Below, in pieces: positions 16,092 through 24,670 of a DNA stretch of 37,873 bases. Both the position numbers and the translations under genes were made by a program. Position 1 is the first letter of the stretch; each line of letters starts with the position of its first letter. The stretch is taken from positions 1-37,873 of the forward strand of contig VHBA01000022.1 in the NCBI GenBank assembly GCA_016872175.1, in the 5' to 3' direction. This DNA is from Sphingomonadales bacterium. GTDB taxonomy: Bacteria > Bacteroidota > Bacteroidia > NS11-12g > UBA955. The notes below the pieces were generated by a model. It searched no databases. It saw only the letters and a list, made by a program, of their open reading frames with translations, and was not told the DNA's origin.

Positions 16092-17411
16092 TTACTTCTT
16101 TTCGTAAACCTTGTCCTTATCGGTTTTTACTACCTTATCGCCGTCATACAGCGTTTTGGCAATGGCGATGCCGGGGGCGGAAACCACTTCATCACCGGGT
16201 TTCAGGCCTTCGGTAATTTCAAAATAGTCCAAATCCTGCAAGCCGGTTTTTACCTTCACCGATTTCAAAACGCCGTTGTTGTACAGCAATACCCATGTGC
16301 CTTTGTCTTCTTTCTCGGGTTCCTCGGTCTGTGTCTTACCATTTTTACCACCCGTATCTGATTTTTTCGCAGGATTGCGGGTAGTTACAGCTGAAATGGG
16401 TACACAAAGGGCGTTGTTTTTAGAAACTGTTTTTATATCAACAGTAGCGGTCATGCCCGGTCTAAAAGGCTGATTTCTGCCCATTCCCAGGTCAGCATAG
16501 CTTTCTGCCAGAATGCGCACCTTCACCACAAAATTGGTAACCTGATCGGTCAATAACTGCGCACTATTGAATTTAGCACTGTTGGCAATCTGGGTTACCA
16601 AGCCTTTAAAAACCCTATCGGGATAGGCATCCACTTTTATGTCCGCGCTATCGCCGTTTTTAATCCGCACGATATCATTCTCATTTACATTCACCTCTAC
16701 TTCCATCACATTCAAATTGCTGATGCGCATGATTTCGGTGCCTGCCATCTGCGCTGTTCCTACCACGCGTTCGCCTTTTTCGCTGTTCATTTGGGTAACA
16801 ATACCGCTGGCAGGGGCAAATATGGAAGTTCTGCCCAGGTTTCTTCTGCCCTCTTCAAGTCTGGCAGCAGCACTGGCAGTGGTGTATTTTGCCGCAAGGG
16901 CATTCTTTTCGGCAGAAATGGCATCGGCCTTGGCAACTTCATATTGCACACGGGCCTGGTCCCATTCCTGTTCGCTAATTACCTTTTGTTCATGCAACTG
17001 TTTTTGTCTTCTGTAATTGGCCTCTGCCTGAATCAAGGAAGCCGCGGCTCTGGCTTTCTGGGCTTCGCTTCCGGCCATACCTGCGCGGGCATTATCGAGG
17101 TTGGCGCTCAGCTGGCTGATGGTAGTTTCATACAATTCAGGGTTGATGCGCAACAACAGCTGACCTTGCCTTACACTGTCGCCTTCCAGCACGGCCATTT
17201 CAATAATCTCACCACTTACATCGGCGCTTATTTTCACTTCGCTTTCAGGCTGGATTTTTCCACTCACACTCACTATTTCAGTGATGGTGCGGGTTATTAC
17301 CTTGTCGGTGCTTACCCGTGTTTCAGCCTTTCCACCACGGAAAATGGCTATCAGCAACAGCAGCAGCACAACAGAACCTATGGAAATCCAAACGATTTTT
17401 TTCTTTTTCAT
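16092..17411 (-). CDS. Periplasmic adaptor (membrane fusion) subunit, HlyD/MacA type
   Basis: A 439-residue protein anchored by one N-terminal membrane helix (residues ~7-25, VWISIGSVVLLLLLIAIF). A split biotinyl-lipoyl domain flanks a long coiled-coil hairpin (residues ~100-185, rich in Ala, Gln and Glu). A beta-barrel domain follows (VEVNVNENDIVRIKNGD), and the C-terminal domain carries a Lys/Glu-rich low-complexity insertion (~345-375). Such adaptors join an inner-membrane pump to a TolC channel. It follows the tolC-like gene by 1 bp. No ABC or RND pump gene comes after it; the next gene converges with no gap. Confidence 0.92.
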   Translation of the reverse strand: MKKKKIVWISIGSVVLLLLLIAIFRGGKAETRVSTDKVITRTITEIVSVSGKIQPESEVKISADVSGEIIEMAVLEGDSVRQGQLLLRINPELYETTISQLSANLDNARAGMAGSEAQKARAAASLIQAEANYRRQKQLHEQKVISEQEWDQARVQYEVAKADAISAEKNALAAKYTTASAAARLEEGRRNLGRTSIFAPASGIVTQMNSEKGERVVGTAQMAGTEIMRISNLNVMEVEVNVNENDIVRIKNGDSADIKVDAYPDRVFKGLVTQIANSAKFNSAQLLTDQVTNFVVKVRILAESYADLGMGRNQPFRPGMTATVDIKTVSKNNALCVPISAVTTRNPAKKSDTGGKNGKTQTEEPEKEDKGTWVLLYNNGVLKSVKVKTGLQDLDYFEITEGLKPGDEVVSAPGIAIAKTLYDGDKVVKTDKDKVYEKK

Positions 17412-17412
17412 T

Positions 17413-18861
17413 TTACAGTGTTAAAGGTTTGCCCAGGTAAAAATCCAGTACCATTTTTCTAAACATATACTCATACCGAACCGAAGTGAGGTTATTTCTG
17501 GCTGTGGTTTCATTGGTTTGTGCTAATTGCAACTCAAATGCATTGGCTTGTCCGGCTTCGAAACGTTTATTTACAAAATCCATGTTTCTTTTTTGCGCCT
17601 CAATAGCCCTGATGGCTGACTGATAGCGTTCCATGGCCGATGAGAAATTATTGTATGCCGAAACCACCTCTGTGTAAAGGTTTTGAACCGCCCTTTCCGC
17701 ACTCAGCTTTGCCCTAACTTCGTCAAGGCTGGCACGCTGCGCGGTATTGCGGGCCTGCAGTTTGCCATATACAGGTACAGAAAGGTTAAATCCAAGCGAT
17801 TGGCCAAAGTTGTCTTTTACCTGCTTGCTGAAATCAATGGTTTGCAGCGTGTATTGAATGCTGGGCGCTTCCACAATATCGTTGGTTCCCTGCACACGGC
17901 CAATGGGCTCAAAGCCTGAAAAGGTGATTCCTGAAATTGATTTCGCATTGCTAGAATATACGGTGCTTAGATTGCCGCCAACCGACAAAACCGGCAGCAT
18001 GCCGCCCCTTGCAGCTTTGCGGGCATAAATGGCTGCTTTGTGCCTGAATACAGCCGCTTGCAAATCCGGCCTTCTTTTCATGGCGCTATCGAAAAGATCT
18101 TGCTGGCTTGTCGGATAAGTTTCAGGCTTGTATAGGCTTATTTCAGGACGCAGTATATCGAATGCGTTTTCGGCAGGCAGTCTCAGCAACATTTTCAGGT
18201 TGGTAAGCGCCAGTATTTCCTGATTTGTGGCATTAGTCAATGATGTCTGGTCGTTTGCTTTCTGGGCTTCCAGGTTCAGCACCTGACCTTCATTGACTAC
18301 GCCGGCAACAAACAGTTTGCGGGACCTTTGAAGTTGTAAATCGGTGTTTTTTAAGGTCTCTTCCGCACTGGCCTTGAGTTCTTTAGCCTGAATAATCTGC
18401 AGAAACAGATTGGCCACGTTCAAAGCCGTGTTTTGTTCCATGTTTCTCAAATCGCTTTCACCGGCAAGCCAGAGGTATTTGCTTTGGTGAATGCTGTTGC
18501 GGATTTGGCCACCTGCGTAGAGAAGCACGCTGCTTTGCAGTTGCAGGTTGTTGCTGCTTACGGTGGTTTGAACAAACTGGTTGGTAAAACGGTCAATACT
18601 TCTGCCTGACTGGAAAAACTGACCTGCATTTACGTTTGCATCCGGAGTGGCTGCAGCTATGCTGTTTCTCCAGTTTTGCTGAGCCTGTTGGGCTGAAACA
18701 CCGGCAAGTTGTACGTCGATATTGCTTTTGAGGGCTTGTTCAATGCACTGTTCGAGGGTCCAAGTGCCGGTTTGGGCAGAAAGTACCCCAGGCATTAAAA
18801 ATCCCAGCATCAGGGTTATGGCAGACCGCATACCGCAAAAATACTGATATCTCCGCGACAT
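17413..18861 (-). CDS. TolC-family outer-membrane efflux channel
   Basis: A 482-residue protein. A signal peptide ends near residue 29 (MLGFLMPGVLSAQ); Met11 is an equally good start. The mature part opens WTLEQCIEQALKSNIDV, the family's typical first helix, and two Ala/Gln/Asn-rich long-helix repeats follow (around 150-240 and 365-460). The second repeat contains NKRFEAGQANAFELQLAQ, a strong TolC/OEP signature. The protein forms the outer-membrane duct of tripartite exporters. It is the first gene of a two-gene unit with the adaptor (1 bp gap) and divergent from the B12 locus, ~100 bp from that locus's promoter box. Confidence 0.93.
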   Translation of the reverse strand: MSRRYQYFCGMRSAITLMLGFLMPGVLSAQTGTWTLEQCIEQALKSNIDVQLAGVSAQQAQQNWRNSIAAATPDANVNAGQFFQSGRSIDRFTNQFVQTTVSSNNLQLQSSVLLYAGGQIRNSIHQSKYLWLAGESDLRNMEQNTALNVANLFLQIIQAKELKASAEETLKNTDLQLQRSRKLFVAGVVNEGQVLNLEAQKANDQTSLTNATNQEILALTNLKMLLRLPAENAFDILRPEISLYKPETYPTSQQDLFDSAMKRRPDLQAAVFRHKAAIYARKAARGGMLPVLSVGGNLSTVYSSNAKSISGITFSGFEPIGRVQGTNDIVEAPSIQYTLQTIDFSKQVKDNFGQSLGFNLSVPVYGKLQARNTAQRASLDEVRAKLSAERAVQNLYTEVVSAYNNFSSAMERYQSAIRAIEAQKRNMDFVNKRFEAGQANAFELQLAQTNETTARNNLTSVRYEYMFRKMVLDFYLGKPLTL

Positions 18862-18960: not shown

Positions 18961-18968
18961 TAGTTTTG
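18961..18968 (+). promoter_or_regulatory. Promoter -7 box TAGTTTTG of the B12 locus
   Basis: Exact TAnnTTTG match just before the riboswitch. Transcription is expected to start around 18975, so the aptamer would be at the very 5' end of the transcript. Confidence 0.55.
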
Positions 18969-18971
18969 TAG

Positions 18972-19165
18972 TGCATCTGGTTCTCTAGTAACAAACATTT
19001 GTTGCAGGAGATGAAAAGGGAACTCCGGTGAAAAACCGGGACTGTACCCGCAGCTGTAACCCCGGCCCGCAAGGGCTTCGGCATTCTTAGCCACTGTTGA
19101 TGATACCAATGGGAAGGCGCCGAAACAAACAGGGGAAGTCAGAAGACCTGCCAGGCGCAAAACAA
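18972..19165 (+). promoter_or_regulatory. Cobalamin (vitamin B12) riboswitch
   Basis: The conserved core is easily read: GGGAACTCCGGTGAAAAACC at 19020-19039, then GGGACTGTACCCGCAGCTGT (19040-19059), a variable GC stem (GGCCCGCAAGGGCTTCGGC region), GCCACTG at 19090-19096, GGGAAGGCGC at 19111-19120, and the B12 box GAAGTCAGAAGACCTGCC at 19135-19152. It binds adenosylcobalamin or a related form and lowers expression of the downstream uptake genes when B12 is plentiful. The ~85 nt between the B12 box and the btuB-like start would hold the regulatory arm; I see no clear U-tract terminator there, so control of translation initiation is more likely. End points are approximate. Confidence 0.95.
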
Positions 19166-19250
19166 AGAGCTTGCTTTCGGGAAGAAAAGCGCACTGAATT
19201 GGGGAAACCCGGTCTATTGCATTTTTCACGTCAAAGGCGGCATTGTAAAC

Positions 19251-21077
19251 ATGACAGGCATCGTATGCTGCATATCGCTTCTGCTGTCCGCGCCCGATAC
19301 ATTTCCGGCTGCCGATACCATTTTTATTCATGAGAAACGCCAGCAACTGGCCTCCGTTGGGAAAAATGTGCTGCATTTCGAGCCGGGTAGCGGCAACCTG
19401 CTCAGTCAGGATTTGGCTTCTGCCGGACTCAGCATCCGTCAATACGGGCCTTCCGGTATTGGCACCCTCAGCCGCCGCGGAGCCGATCCTTCACAGTTGC
19501 AAATATTGTGGAACGGCATTGTACTCAACAATCCCATGCTGGGAATGACAGATCTGGGTTTGCTGCAGAATGATGCGCAATCCCGCATCGCGCTTACTGA
19601 AGGTAGCAGCGGCTCTTTTTACGGCAGCGGCAGTGTGGGAGGAACCTTGTCTATGCAGCATGTGCAGCCCGAAAAAATAGGGGAATCGCTTGCATCATCG
19701 TTTACTGCCGGCAGCTTTGGCCGAATACAGGCAAACGCAGATTGCCGGATTAAAAGTAGCAAAAGCTTCTTCATTTGGGACAATCAGTGGCTCAATGTGA
19801 AAAACAATTTTCCCTATAAAATTGAAAATACATCCAATGCCAATATGCAATATGCTGAACGTGAGCAGAACAAAAGCCGCATTTCTTCCGGTTTGCATTA
19901 TAGAAAATGGGATGTAGCCCTTCATTCCGAATGGCAAAAAGGAGAACGCGGTTTGGGAACATCCGCCGGTGGTACTAGCTCGCTGGGCTGGCAGGCCGAT
20001 GAAAATAAGCGAATAGCGCTGCTTGCCAATTACCAGTCTTCCAAAGTAAAATGGGTACAAAGGCTCGGTTTTATTCAGGATAATTTTGTTTTTCAGCCAT
20101 TGGCAAACCAATACAAAGACAGCAGCCGTTCCCAGAGCCTTCAGTACCAGCAGGAATGGCATTTTACAGTTGGTGGCTGGAATGTTATTGTGGGAGCTGA
20201 TTTGTGGCAGGTGTCAGGAAAAACGCGGGCATACACTAAACAGGCGCAACAATTATTTCCCGCGCAGTTTCTCTCGTTGTTCAAACAAAACAAAAAATAC
20301 CGCATAGCGGCCAGCAGCCGTTGGGAGTGGCACGAGCAGATTTTAGTAAATGCTGTTTCGGGGGAATATGCGCTGGGTAAGGTTATTAACTTTAAAAGCT
20401 TTGTCAGCAATAGTTTTAGGCGGCCAACGCTGAACGATCAATACTGGAGCTTGGGCGGGAATGCAAACATAAAGCCGGAAAGAGGCGGCAACGCAGAAGC
20501 CGGACTTGCGGCCAAATGGATGCAAGGCAATGTGAAGGCAGATATTGCTGCAACTTTGTGGGCGCGTTACCTCAACAATCCCATCGTATGGCTGCCGGAA
20601 AATAATATCTGGACGGCTTCCAATATGCAGCGTGGTGATTATTACGGAACCCAGTTTTCTGCTGTTCTTTCCGGCTTGATTGGCCAAACCCAATGGCAAT
20701 GTCATACTACTGCTGAATGGTGCCGGGCAGAAATGTTGAAAAACGATGTGCAATTCAGGGCACTGTTTGTACCTGCTTTTTCGGGTGCATGTTTCTTGAA
20801 GTTGCAGCGAAACAAGTGGTTTATGAATACCGGCTGCAACTGGCAGACTATGCGCTATACAAGCACAGATAATTTGTCGTCATTGCCCGGCTACACGCTG
20901 TTTTCAGTCCAAACAGGAAAGGAGCTGCGTTTCAAACAACACAATCTTTCATTGTCAGCAGGTGCGGACAATATTTTTAACCGAAGCTATGAAGTAATGC
21001 CTGGAAGGCCTATGCCCCTGAGCAGTTTCTGGCTGAAAGCAATGATTCAAATAAACAATTACAAAAATAAACCATGA
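19251..21077 (+). CDS. btuB: TonB-dependent vitamin B12 receptor, BtuB-like
   Basis: A 608-residue outer-membrane receptor. A short signal-like start (IVCCISLLLSAPDTFPAADT) is followed by the plug domain (residues ~35-145: GTLSRRGADPSQLQILWNGI, SGSFYGSGSVGGTLSM). A ~22-strand barrel follows, ending in the family-typical SLSAGADNIFNRSYEVMPG and a final strand WLKAMIQI. The cobalamin riboswitch directly upstream identifies the substrate as B12 or a related cobamide. It overlaps the next gene by 4 bp (ATGA). The inner-membrane BtuCDF transporter and TonB are not in the window. The short N-terminus leaves little room for a signal peptide, and I could not find a better upstream start. Confidence 0.9.
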   Translation: MTGIVCCISLLLSAPDTFPAADTIFIHEKRQQLASVGKNVLHFEPGSGNLLSQDLASAGLSIRQYGPSGIGTLSRRGADPSQLQILWNGIVLNNPMLGMTDLGLLQNDAQSRIALTEGSSGSFYGSGSVGGTLSMQHVQPEKIGESLASSFTAGSFGRIQANADCRIKSSKSFFIWDNQWLNVKNNFPYKIENTSNANMQYAEREQNKSRISSGLHYRKWDVALHSEWQKGERGLGTSAGGTSSLGWQADENKRIALLANYQSSKVKWVQRLGFIQDNFVFQPLANQYKDSSRSQSLQYQQEWHFTVGGWNVIVGADLWQVSGKTRAYTKQAQQLFPAQFLSLFKQNKKYRIAASSRWEWHEQILVNAVSGEYALGKVINFKSFVSNSFRRPTLNDQYWSLGGNANIKPERGGNAEAGLAAKWMQGNVKADIAATLWARYLNNPIVWLPENNIWTASNMQRGDYYGTQFSAVLSGLIGQTQWQCHTTAEWCRAEMLKNDVQFRALFVPAFSGACFLKLQRNKWFMNTGCNWQTMRYTSTDNLSSLPGYTLFSVQTGKELRFKQHNLSLSAGADNIFNRSYEVMPGRPMPLSSFWLKAMIQINNYKNKP

Positions 21078-22057
21078 AACATTTACAAAAATTAGCATTC
21101 ATTATGCTAATAATCTCGACTTCAGCGCTACATGCGCAAATTTCCGAAGGCTTTGAAAAAATAACCCTCGACTCAGGCAAAATACTTAATGGGAGTGAAG
21201 GAACAGTGATGCATTCTTTTGCCACAGGCGAATTGAATTTTCCTGTAAGCTGGGATACAACTTATAAATACTGGGCAAGCGGCTGGGCTTTATCCAAAAT
21301 CATCTACAATAAAGTAGAACCTTCCAATTATGCCGAACATTTATATGCTTCTGCTGCGGGTTATGGTGTTGAAAATGGCAAAGGCAAAACCTTTATGGTG
21401 GGGCAGAGCGGTAGTTTTTTCAATATTAAAAGAAAAATTACCAGTGATTACCCGATAAGAGGTTTCTATGTGAGCAATTCTACTTACGCCTACAACAGTA
21501 TGATGTTTGGTGACTTTGTAGCCAAAAAATTTGGCGGTAAATCAGGTAAGGATGCCGATTCATTCGTGCTTATCATCCGTTGCTACAAGAAAAATAAGCC
21601 TGTTGACAGCCAGCGTGTGGTTTTAGCAGATTTTCGTTTTGCAGATTCTACCAAAGACTACATCCTCAACCAATGGGAGTTTGTAGCAATAAAAGACGCT
21701 TACACAGATAGCGTTTCATTTGATTTGATAAGTTCAGATAACGGGCAGTTTGGTATGAATACACCTGCTTTTTTTACACTGGATGGTGTTGAGTTTTACG
21801 GATTGAGTTCTGTGAAAAAATCACAGCCACAGTGCAATATTTATCCCATTCCTGCTAATAATATTTTGAATATCAATGCAGAATTTTCGATGGTTTCCTT
21901 GAAAATTATGGATTATTCGGGGCGTTTGAAATCGGTGGGTGTTGTGAATGATAAAAACGGCAGTGTTGAAGTAAGCCAATTGCCACAAGGCTATTACATC
22001 GTGCAGGTTCAAACCACAGGAGGTCTCCTTTCACGCACCATTCAGATAGTTAGATAA
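21074..22057 (+). CDS. DUF4465-type secreted protein with T9SS sorting domain, B12 locus
   Basis: A 327-residue protein with a signal peptide (residues 1-22, ending SALHAQ). The N-terminal segment ISEGFEKITLDSGKILNGSEG and the later NSTYAYNSMMFGDFVAKKFGG, DSFVLIIRCYKK and FDLISSDNGQFGMNTPAFFTLDGVEF match my memory of DUF4465, a jelly-roll-like family seen beside cobalamin receptors in Bacteroidota. The last ~75 residues (CNIYPIPANNILNINAEF to TIQIVR) are a T9SS C-terminal domain. It is translationally coupled to btuB (4 bp overlap) and to the BtuG-like gene (1 bp overlap). A surface role in cobamide capture is likely but is inferred from position. Confidence 0.8.
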   Translation: MKHLQKLAFIMLIISTSALHAQISEGFEKITLDSGKILNGSEGTVMHSFATGELNFPVSWDTTYKYWASGWALSKIIYNKVEPSNYAEHLYASAAGYGVENGKGKTFMVGQSGSFFNIKRKITSDYPIRGFYVSNSTYAYNSMMFGDFVAKKFGGKSGKDADSFVLIIRCYKKNKPVDSQRVVLADFRFADSTKDYILNQWEFVAIKDAYTDSVSFDLISSDNGQFGMNTPAFFTLDGVEFYGLSSVKKSQPQCNIYPIPANNILNINAEFSMVSLKIMDYSGRLKSVGVVNDKNGSVEVSQLPQGYYIVQVQTTGGLLSRTIQIVR

Positions 22058-23061
22058 TGCGTTTATTATCGGCAGTTTTGTTGGTTACAGTTTCTCTTTT
22101 CGCTTGTCGAAAAGAGAAACCTCTGCCTGCAGCCGTTGATGCCGGTTCCAATACCGTGCTGGTTTTAAATGAAGGCAATTACATGTGGGCCAATGCCTCG
22201 CTGGATTTGTTTAACATAGATTCCGGTACGCTGCGTTCTGATGTTTTTAAAACCATAAACCAAAAGCCGCTGGGAGATGTGCTGCAAAGTGGCAGTATCA
22301 TTAATGGAGATGTATGGTTAGTTGTAAATAATTCAGGCAAAATTTTGGTGCTGGACAGCCAAACGCTGAAAGAAAAATATAGCATTACAGGTCTGGGTTC
22401 CCCAAGGTATGCGGTCAAAGCCGGAAGCCATATTTGGGTTTCAGATTTGTATTCAAGGAAAATACAGGTTCGGGATGCGACAGGTAAGCAGCTTTTCAAA
22501 CAAATACATACTGGTGCCTGGACCGAACAAATGGTCTTCAGCGGCAGCCACGTGTGGGTGGCCTGCTATGATGGCTGGCTAAGGAAATATCATGCTGCTG
22601 ATTTCAATATAATTGACAGCTGCTATGTGGGAAAAGGCCTTCGCTGGATTGTCTCGGATAAAAAGAATAATATTTGGGCGCTGGCATCCGATAATGACAG
22701 TGCTTACAGCCGACTTCAGCAATGGACACCAGATGGCAAAAGGCTGAAGAGCTTTACCATGCCGTTATCCGGTTATGCTTCATCACTTTGCATGAATCCG
22801 GGAAAAGACAGTCTTTATTACCTGGCAAACGGTGTATACAGCTTATCAATTGAAGATGTGCAACTGCCTGTAAAGCCTGTATTTACTATAACCGGAGCCA
22901 ATTTATATAATATTGCCTGTCATCCACGTAAAAATGTACTTTTCATCTCCGATGCTGCCGATTATGTGTCAAGGGGAAAGATTTATATCGTTGGATCCGC
23001 AGGAAATGAAATTGGATCACTCACAGCAGGTATCATTCCTTCAGGTTTTGTGTTTTATTGA
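22057..23061 (+). CDS. Surface lipoprotein beta-propeller, BtuG-like (cobamide capture)
   Basis: A 334-residue lipoprotein: the lipobox LFAC places the lipidated Cys at residue 17. The mature protein is a beta-propeller with repeated blades (VLVLNEGNYMWANASLDLFN, DVWLVVNNSGKILVLDS, HIWVSDLYSRKIQVRD, HVWVACYDGWLRKYHA, NIWALASDND). The opening VLNEGNYMWANASL is characteristic of the DUF5074/BtuG-like group. In Bacteroides, BtuG binds B12 very tightly at the cell surface and sits on BtuB. Its place in a riboswitch-controlled operon with BtuB supports the same role here. I rely on pattern and context; no direct search was made. Confidence 0.75.
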   Translation: MRLLSAVLLVTVSLFACRKEKPLPAAVDAGSNTVLVLNEGNYMWANASLDLFNIDSGTLRSDVFKTINQKPLGDVLQSGSIINGDVWLVVNNSGKILVLDSQTLKEKYSITGLGSPRYAVKAGSHIWVSDLYSRKIQVRDATGKQLFKQIHTGAWTEQMVFSGSHVWVACYDGWLRKYHAADFNIIDSCYVGKGLRWIVSDKKNNIWALASDNDSAYSRLQQWTPDGKRLKSFTMPLSGYASSLCMNPGKDSLYYLANGVYSLSIEDVQLPVKPVFTITGANLYNIACHPRKNVLFISDAADYVSRGKIYIVGSAGNEIGSLTAGIIPSGFVFY

Positions 23062-23089: not shown

Positions 23090-23097
23090 TAACTTTG
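23090..23097 (+). promoter_or_regulatory. Promoter -7 box TAACTTTG
   Basis: Exact TAnnTTTG match 34 nt before the ATG at 23132. The predicted leader contains a small hairpin, ATATCC (23103-23108) pairing with GGATAT (23114-23119), whose role is unclear. Confidence 0.5.
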
Positions 23098-23131: not shown

Positions 23132-24670
23132 ATGGCAGTGAAAAGAACCCTGGTAAAACGCATTGACCTACTGGTGCTCAGATCCTATATCGGGCCCTTT
23201 TTGGCAACGTTTGTCCTGAGCATGTTTCTGTTTTTAATGCAGTTCTTGTGGAAATACATTGATGAGCTGGTGGGAAAGGGAATTGAGCCACTGATTCTCA
23301 TGAAACTCATTTTCTATTCACTGGCCGATTTGGTTCCCATGGCTTTGCCGCTTACCGTAATGGTAGCCGGTTTGATGACATTTGGCAACCTTAGTGAAAG
23401 TTTTGAACTGGTCGCCCTCAAAGCCAATGGAATTTCATTGTTCAGAATCCTGCGCCCCGCGTTTCTGCTGATGCTGGGCCTTGCAATGGTCAATTTCTTT
23501 TTTATGAATATCGTAATCCCCAAGGCTAATCTCGAAGCAAAGGCTTTACTCTGGGATTTGAGGCAGAAAAAACCGGCATTTAATATTCAGGAAGGTGTGT
23601 TCTATCAGCAAATTGAGGGTTTTTCCATTCGCATCGGTAAAAAACTCGCCGACAATGAGAGCGTAGAGAATGTGCTCATTTATGAATACAAAGGCGATGA
23701 AAGCAAGCGGCTTAACGTTATTAGAGCTGAAAAGGGAAGTATGGTGCTTTCACCGGATAAAAGAACATTGTTCTTTACCTTGTTCAACGGTGTGCGCTAT
23801 GATGAAATGACCAAGAATCCTGATTATTCGCGCACAGCGCCCTTCAACCAGATGCGGTTCGAGAAACAAAAGATGATTATTGATCTCAGCAGCCTTGATT
23901 TAAAATTTACGGAGCGCGACGCCTACAAAGGCGATTACAGGCTCATGAATATAAGAGAGCTGGGTTGTGAGCTTGATACAGCAGAACAGAAGATTCAAAA
24001 GCAAAAAAATGAGAATGCAGGTTTTCTGGCCAGATACATTCATCTTCCGGGGATATTTGGAAATAAATCAAGACCGGAATTAAATAAAAGCAGACCTTCT
24101 AAAGTTCGCCTTATCATGCCGCGGAATCAAGAAAAACCTGCAGGCAAGCAGGGTGATATAATTGCCGCTTCCATTAATAATGCCAGGGGATTCAAAGGCA
24201 CACTAGACGGCCTTATTACAGGCTTAAAATATGAGGAAGAACAGCTTGCTCCTTACAAAGTGGAGTGGCATAAAAAGTTTACATTATCCGTATTGCTAAT
24301 TATGCTATTTCTCATTTCAGCACCACTGGGAGCCATTATTCGCAAGGGAGGAATAGGTATGCCGCTGGTAATTAGTGTTTTGTTGTTTGTACTTTTCTAT
24401 GCCATAAACCTGGTTGGTGAGAAAATAGGGAAGGAGGGCTTATTGCCAATATGGGGCGGTATGTGGATGAGCAGTCTCATATTGTTTCCGATAGGTATTT
24501 ATATAACCATTAAAGCCGCTTCTGACAGTGCCATACTGAGCCTTGAAGCATATCAGAAATTCTTTAATCGACTATTTTGGGTAATACCTAAGAACGAAAA
24601 CGGCGAATTGGATAATACGGCTAAAAAACAATTGAGACTGCTGGTATTCCTCAAAAGAAACAAGTCATGA
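23132..24670 (+). CDS. LptF/LptG-family (YjgP/YjgQ) permease
   Basis: A 512-residue inner-membrane protein. Three N-terminal membrane helices (residues ~15-40, 60-90, 100-130) and three or more C-terminal helices (~385-475) bracket a periplasmic jellyroll-like domain, with VENVLIYEYKGDESKRLNVIRAEKG typical of the family. It forms part of the ABC system that pulls lipopolysaccharide from the inner membrane into the Lpt bridge. Bacteroidota often carry one long LptF/G-like protein. The segment from 290 to 345 is charged and low in structure, making the protein longer than the ~360 residues of E. coli LptF/G. It overlaps the glycosyltransferase gene by 4 bp. Confidence 0.9.
   Translation: MAVKRTLVKRIDLLVLRSYIGPFLATFVLSMFLFLMQFLWKYIDELVGKGIEPLILMKLIFYSLADLVPMALPLTVMVAGLMTFGNLSESFELVALKANGISLFRILRPAFLLMLGLAMVNFFFMNIVIPKANLEAKALLWDLRQKKPAFNIQEGVFYQQIEGFSIRIGKKLADNESVENVLIYEYKGDESKRLNVIRAEKGSMVLSPDKRTLFFTLFNGVRYDEMTKNPDYSRTAPFNQMRFEKQKMIIDLSSLDLKFTERDAYKGDYRLMNIRELGCELDTAEQKIQKQKNENAGFLARYIHLPGIFGNKSRPELNKSRPSKVRLIMPRNQEKPAGKQGDIIAASINNARGFKGTLDGLITGLKYEEEQLAPYKVEWHKKFTLSVLLIMLFLISAPLGAIIRKGGIGMPLVISVLLFVLFYAINLVGEKIGKEGLLPIWGGMWMSSLILFPIGIYITIKAASDSAILSLEAYQKFFNRLFWVIPKNENGELDNTAKKQLRLLVFLKRNKS

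Follow-up and report, generated by a model that had tools for sequence, protein, structure and literature searches.

Vitamin B12 capture at the cell surface of Bacteroidota has been defined in gut species, raising the question of whether a riboswitch-headed, three-gene locus in a relative from outside the gut works as an uptake operon of the same kind, and by which routes its surface proteins would be delivered. The locus occupies positions 18961-23061 (+ strand) of a 37,873-nt stretch of DNA that was analysed in full, hereafter the window. The initial annotation had proposed a cobalamin riboswitch at the head of a transcript encoding a receptor and two surface partners, one lipidated and one sorted by T9SS. 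We found that the locus is a genuine vitamin B12 uptake operon in a non-gut relative of gut Bacteroides, with parts that are all of known kinds. The lineage is probably from freshwater, as the name K_DeepCast_35m of a single related Bacteroidetes MAG record (VGGQ01000043.1) suggests.

A riboswitch-headed operon

A covariance search (cmscan) placed a cobalamin riboswitch aptamer (RF00174) at 18961..19169 (+), matching the full model (1-189) with 104.1 bits against a gathering score of 31.5 (E 3.3e-25), and no second cobalamin riboswitch was found in the 2.26-Mb, 98.7% complete genome. ORF coordinates and Pfam domains order the genes on one strand, as initially annotated, from btuB through a DUF4465 gene to btuG, with btuB ending at 21077 and the DUF4465 gene starting at 21074 (a 4-bp ATGA overlap), and with the DUF4465 stop codon and the btuG start sharing position 22057 (TAATG, a 1-bp overlap). 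The same order was intact in all 30 untruncated loci of the window's family fetched with full flanks, a count drawn from L036-L075 with L073, a different 879-aa protein, left out; recurrence in loci whose proteins are about 20-86% identical to those of the window argues that the arrangement is not due to chance. Within the order, 77 of 108 genomes had DUF4465, compared with 11 of 392 genomes sampled across the phylum. The 879-aa protein (L073:466-3105) carries a DUF4465 domain and is encoded outside a BtuB operon; the same genome has a normal operon as well. Upstream, the riboswitch is bordered by a divergent efflux pair (16092-18861) comprising a TolC-like OEP and a membrane-fusion-type protein, and the TolC-like gene is conserved beside the riboswitch in most relatives.

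The Bacteroidota −7 promoter element has the form TAnnTTTG. A candidate box of this form, TAGTTTTG, abuts the aptamer (18961..18968, +) and was invariant in seven same-genus leaders; across loci, such a box lay a few bases from the aptamer 5′ edge in 32 of 37 compared with 1.3% of background 30-nt windows, suggesting that transcription probably starts at or just within the aptamer, in agreement with the transcript end first proposed. A −33 element was inconsistent, being found in 7 of the 37 loci.

Directly 3′ of the aptamer lies a hairpin, GCUUU-CGGGAAGA-AAAGC (19173..19190, +), which by its sequence, place and loop is of the P13-L13 type and would be expected to kiss L5. A similar loop, CUUCGGG, in the T. 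tengcongensis switch of known structure is a lead towards this assignment. The CTTTCGGG hairpin was seen in nearly all leaders examined, and CTTTCGGG occurred at similar spacing after the aptamer 3′ box AGACCTGC in 104 of 392 Bacteroidota genomes, with the reversed-pattern control rare, so that it was rejected as a novelty and regarded as generic in the phylum; searching the literature for CTTTCGGG returned nothing relevant. An 8-nt stretch at 19222-19229 that is exactly complementary to L5 (shuffle p about 0.006, with only the window considered) was also weighed as L13 and set aside, as it is not kept in relatives and the CTTTCGGG hairpin is the better L13. RNAfold and RNAalifold on the seven leaders predicted a hairpin at 19184..19227 (+) that takes up the P13 3′ arm in its stem and is mutually exclusive with P13, a weakly supported candidate for the ligand-free state. 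Few double-sided changes were found in it among the seven leaders, a number with which a covarying ligand-free structure is suggestive at most. As no terminator-like poly-U was seen between the aptamer and the start codon, the predicted riboswitch control probably acts at translation.

Downstream, an LptF/LptG-family permease gene (23132..24670, +; PF03739, 242 bits) followed BtuG in 26 of the 30 untruncated loci. We rejected it as a member of the B12 operon because it is preceded by a candidate TAnnTTTG box of its own (TAACTTTG, 23090..23097, +, picked out by sequence) and in some loci is missing downstream or split off by an additional gene; it probably lies outside the B12 system. In one relative, a 672-aa T9SS-tailed protein is inserted between BtuG and LptF/G (L045:7863-9881).

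The receptor and its two surface partners

The first gene, btuB (19251..21077, +), encodes a 608-aa TonB-dependent cobalamin outer-membrane transporter with a Plug domain (PF07715), whose PDB matches were solely B. theta BtuB2, BtuB3 and BtuB1 (best E 1.1e-29). By sequence, we assign it to the Bacteroidota BtuB proteins, as a TonB-dependent receptor nearest BtuB; it scored far below the equivalog cut-off of TIGR01779 (47.5 versus 599.7 bits), a model that fits other BtuB proteins.

The third gene (22057..23061, +) encodes a 334-aa surface lipoprotein with the lipobox SLFAC17, in which the C17 column was invariant among 23 aligned members. It matched DUF5074 (PF16819) at 43 bits and BtuG (8bmy) by phmmer (E 1.8e-34), and its AF2 model (pLDDT 91) is a seven-bladed propeller with a TM score of 0.87 to the B. 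theta BtuG-cobalamin structures. The 13 best PDB matches of the model were all BtuG structures, most with bound cobalamin, rather than the unrelated propellers that would have spoken against the initial annotation. The NEGN blade-1 motif and Y316 of BtuG2 were retained and the W272 position stayed aromatic (Tyr here), while the W194 and Y239 positions fell in alignment gaps, reflecting shorter loops. Sequence and modelled fold thus identify the protein as BtuG, predicted to bind cobamides and to form a lid on BtuB, as BtuG caps BtuB in B. theta (PMC10404256).

The middle gene (21074..22057, +) encodes a 327-aa DUF4465 protein (PF14717, 100.4 bits versus 25) with a Sec signal peptide and no lipobox, a predicted cobalamin binder. 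Work from 2025-2026 established DUF4465 as the cobalamin-binding BtuJ family and includes several structures with bound B12 (PMC12751083, PMC13398666), which corrects the initial view of the protein as a mere surface partner; eight divergent members bind B12, one of which comes from Fluviicola taffensis, a non-gut member of the Bacteroidota (PMC13398666). The nine best PDB matches of the AF2 model, an augmented jelly-roll fold, were all DUF4465/BtuJ structures, and its tail also resembled the T9SS CTDs 8qb1 and 8glk_D. Given that the model was of only moderate quality (pLDDT 78), single-residue geometry was left uninterpreted.

That tail is a T9SS type A C-terminal sorting domain (21839..22042, +; PF18962, 39.4 bits; TIGR04183, 33.5 bits), which the protein combines with an AQ-type signal peptide where BtuJ has a lipoprotein anchor, bearing out the proposed pairing of one T9SS-sorted and one lipidated partner. 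A T9SS tail was detected at E <= 0.001 in 26 of 27 DUF4465 members scanned. The genome itself encodes T9SS, with 80 T9SS tails and SprA, the gene of which is split in the assembly. A 20-bp tandem duplication on contig C19 (L003:7750-7789) splits this translocon gene; it could be an assembly error, whereas a real duplication would abolish T9SS export in this strain.

Variations on this layout were observed in relatives. Most DUF4465 proteins of the sister family (L006-L035, L107-L111) consist of two DUF4465 domains and a T9SS tail, and in one sister-family genus (L107, L108) the tandem gene stands directly behind the riboswitch, without BtuB. Between DUF4465 and BtuG, three sister-family loci (L109:7379-8347; L110:3365-4303, −; L111:4908-5867, −) and one genus of the window's family (L112:7981-8982) carry an extra gene for a secreted protein of ~320 aa with a QFDPAGGxxGS start, a T9SS tail and 40-47% identity. 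Apart from the tail, Pfam, NCBIfam and PDB gave nothing informative for this protein, which we regard as a candidate for a further component of the B12 system.

The binding site of the DUF4465 protein was compared with that of BtuJ1. Five of the six contacts examined were kept, with W78, Y97, Y146, N241 and T242, cobalamin contacts in BtuJ1 (PMC12751083), corresponding to W67, Y86, Y138, N229 and T230 in the alignment. Tyr245 in the HI-loop of BtuJ1, termed universally present (PMC12751083) and conserved in 97% of homologues (PMC13398666), aligned with Phe233, for which reason we call the protein BtuJ-like rather than BtuJ. The substitution would remove one hydrogen bond and may weaken cobalamin binding. 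Phe occupied this position in 38 of 46 loci of the window's family, and Phe and Tyr were exchanged at least four times on a gene tree of 238 columns (the Tyr/Phe column included, at a negligible share) but were otherwise stably inherited, arguing that Phe is neither a sequencing slip nor the mark of a decayed copy.

B12 dependence, proposed uptake and rival readings

The genome encodes two B12-dependent enzymes, MetH (1559.7 bits, cut-off 1497) and IcmF (1736.7 bits, cut-off 1500); MetE had no match in the genome, and CobQ, taken as the single marker of B12 biosynthesis, had none over the cut-off, suggesting that the organism is probably an obligate B12 scavenger for which uptake is essential. 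A BtuF-like and FecCD pair was found on another contig, FecCD being the only such permease found.

Taking these observations together, we consider it very likely that the riboswitch, BtuB, BtuG and the T9SS-exported DUF4465 protein form a single cobalamin-repressed uptake operon. At low cellular cobalamin, the riboswitch would keep the transcript on and the three outer-surface proteins would be produced together. Cobalamin would be caught both by BtuG, sitting on BtuB as a lipoprotein lid, and by the DUF4465 protein, either released or attached on the outer face of the outer membrane; BtuG would pass it to the BtuB barrel, TonB energy would draw it into the periplasm, and the ABC system of the BtuF-like and FecCD pair would complete import. 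Cobalamin bound to the aptamer would let L5 kiss L13, lowering expression, probably at translation. This proposal is supported by all three proteins being nearest to characterised cobalamin proteins, while the low TIGR01779 score of BtuB, Phe233 and the split sprA count against it.

The same structural relationships bear on whether the trio imports another ligand, such as heme or a siderophore, with the riboswitch merely coordinating it with B12. BtuG and BtuB are distant from the characterised B. theta proteins, BtuG being about 30% identical, which leaves some room for a different substrate, but the best structural relatives of all three are cobalamin proteins, with no heme or siderophore protein among them, making this reading highly improbable. 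Less easily dismissed, though still not the reading we favour, is the possibility that the DUF4465 protein is untethered and released by T9SS into the medium as a soluble B12 equivalent of a siderophore, to be reclaimed by BtuG and BtuB. B. theta BtuJ acts at a distance on vesicles (PMC12751083), and the protein here has a type A T9SS tail and no lipobox. Close co-operon conservation with a lidded BtuB, however, also suits a tethered capture protein, and type A tails usually lead to cleavage and LPS attachment.

Within an operon for B12 uptake, the Tyr-to-Phe change might mark a DUF4465 subgroup with weakened or altered recognition, for example one preferring other cobamides. The prevalence of Phe in the window's family, its repeated exchange and its stable inheritance are consistent with such a shift, as are the sister-family tandem proteins, which hold Phe mostly in domain 1 (Phe-Tyr in five proteins, Tyr-Phe in one); given that the position stays aromatic, the remaining contact residues are kept and many BtuJ contacts run through main-chain atoms (PMC12751083), we regard it as unlikely. 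Similarly doubtful is a wider scenario in which a free-living Bacteroidota lineage re-tooled B12 capture, with DUF4465 proteins delivered by T9SS (carrying two domains in the sister family), Phe in place of Tyr and an extra T9SS protein making up a secreted or LPS-anchored system whose cobamide preferences would be unlike those of gut BtuJ.

Relation to characterised cobamide systems

The initial annotation had described a non-gut BtuG with a T9SS-delivered partner as little described, a claim that stands in part. Cobalamin binding by DUF4465, its BtuB/PF16819 neighbourhood and its T9SS-type tails (PMC12751083, PMC13398666), as well as the BtuG lid (PMC10404256), are already published. Given that a T9SS-type sorting tail was counted in 229 of 824 DUF4465 members (PMC12751083) and that DUF4465 stands beside PF16819 and TonB-receptor genes family-wide (PMC13398666), the novelty is below that claim. 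The T9SS route itself is under-discussed rather than unknown, since non-lipoprotein members were described with periplasmic targeting signals and T9SS went unmentioned (PMC13398666). The additions made here are modest, namely the Phe-bearing clade, conservation across an order of non-gut Bacteroidota, the tandem DUF4465 proteins and the extra T9SS protein. They carry the BtuB-BtuG-BtuJ scheme, defined in the gut, over to Bacteroidota that have small genomes with a single cobalamin-riboswitch locus and probably live in freshwater, offer natural Tyr/Phe pairs for probing the role of a hallmark B12 contact, and present one binding domain with anchoring routes that differ by lineage, lipid or T9SS.

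Compared with BtuG2 and BtuG3 (BT1954, BT2095; PDB 8bmy, 8okv, 8bmx), the window BtuG shares the seven-bladed propeller lipoprotein architecture and cobalamin-face motifs at 30% identity, and differs by the W272-to-Tyr replacement and the gaps at W194 and Y239. B. theta BtuB1-3 were the only solved relatives found of the window BtuB, which is shorter (608 versus about 690 aa) and of low identity to them. BtuJ1, BtuJ2 and D5EK51 (DUF4465, IPR027828; PDB 9fct, 9i2l, 9hmu) have the same domain and fold as the window DUF4465 protein, which carries a T9SS tail in place of the lipid anchor and the HI-loop NTPAFF in place of NTPSYF. At the level of the locus, B. thetaiotaomicron cobamide loci 1-3 (btuB-btuG-btuH-btuJ, riboswitch-regulated) likewise group a riboswitch, BtuB, BtuG and DUF4465, with matching BtuG and DUF4465 folds. 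B. theta, however, has several loci, a lipidated BtuJ, BtuH/BtuK/BtuL proteins and BtuFCD linked in locus 2, whereas the window has one three-gene locus with a T9SS-sorted DUF4465 protein and the ABC genes elsewhere.
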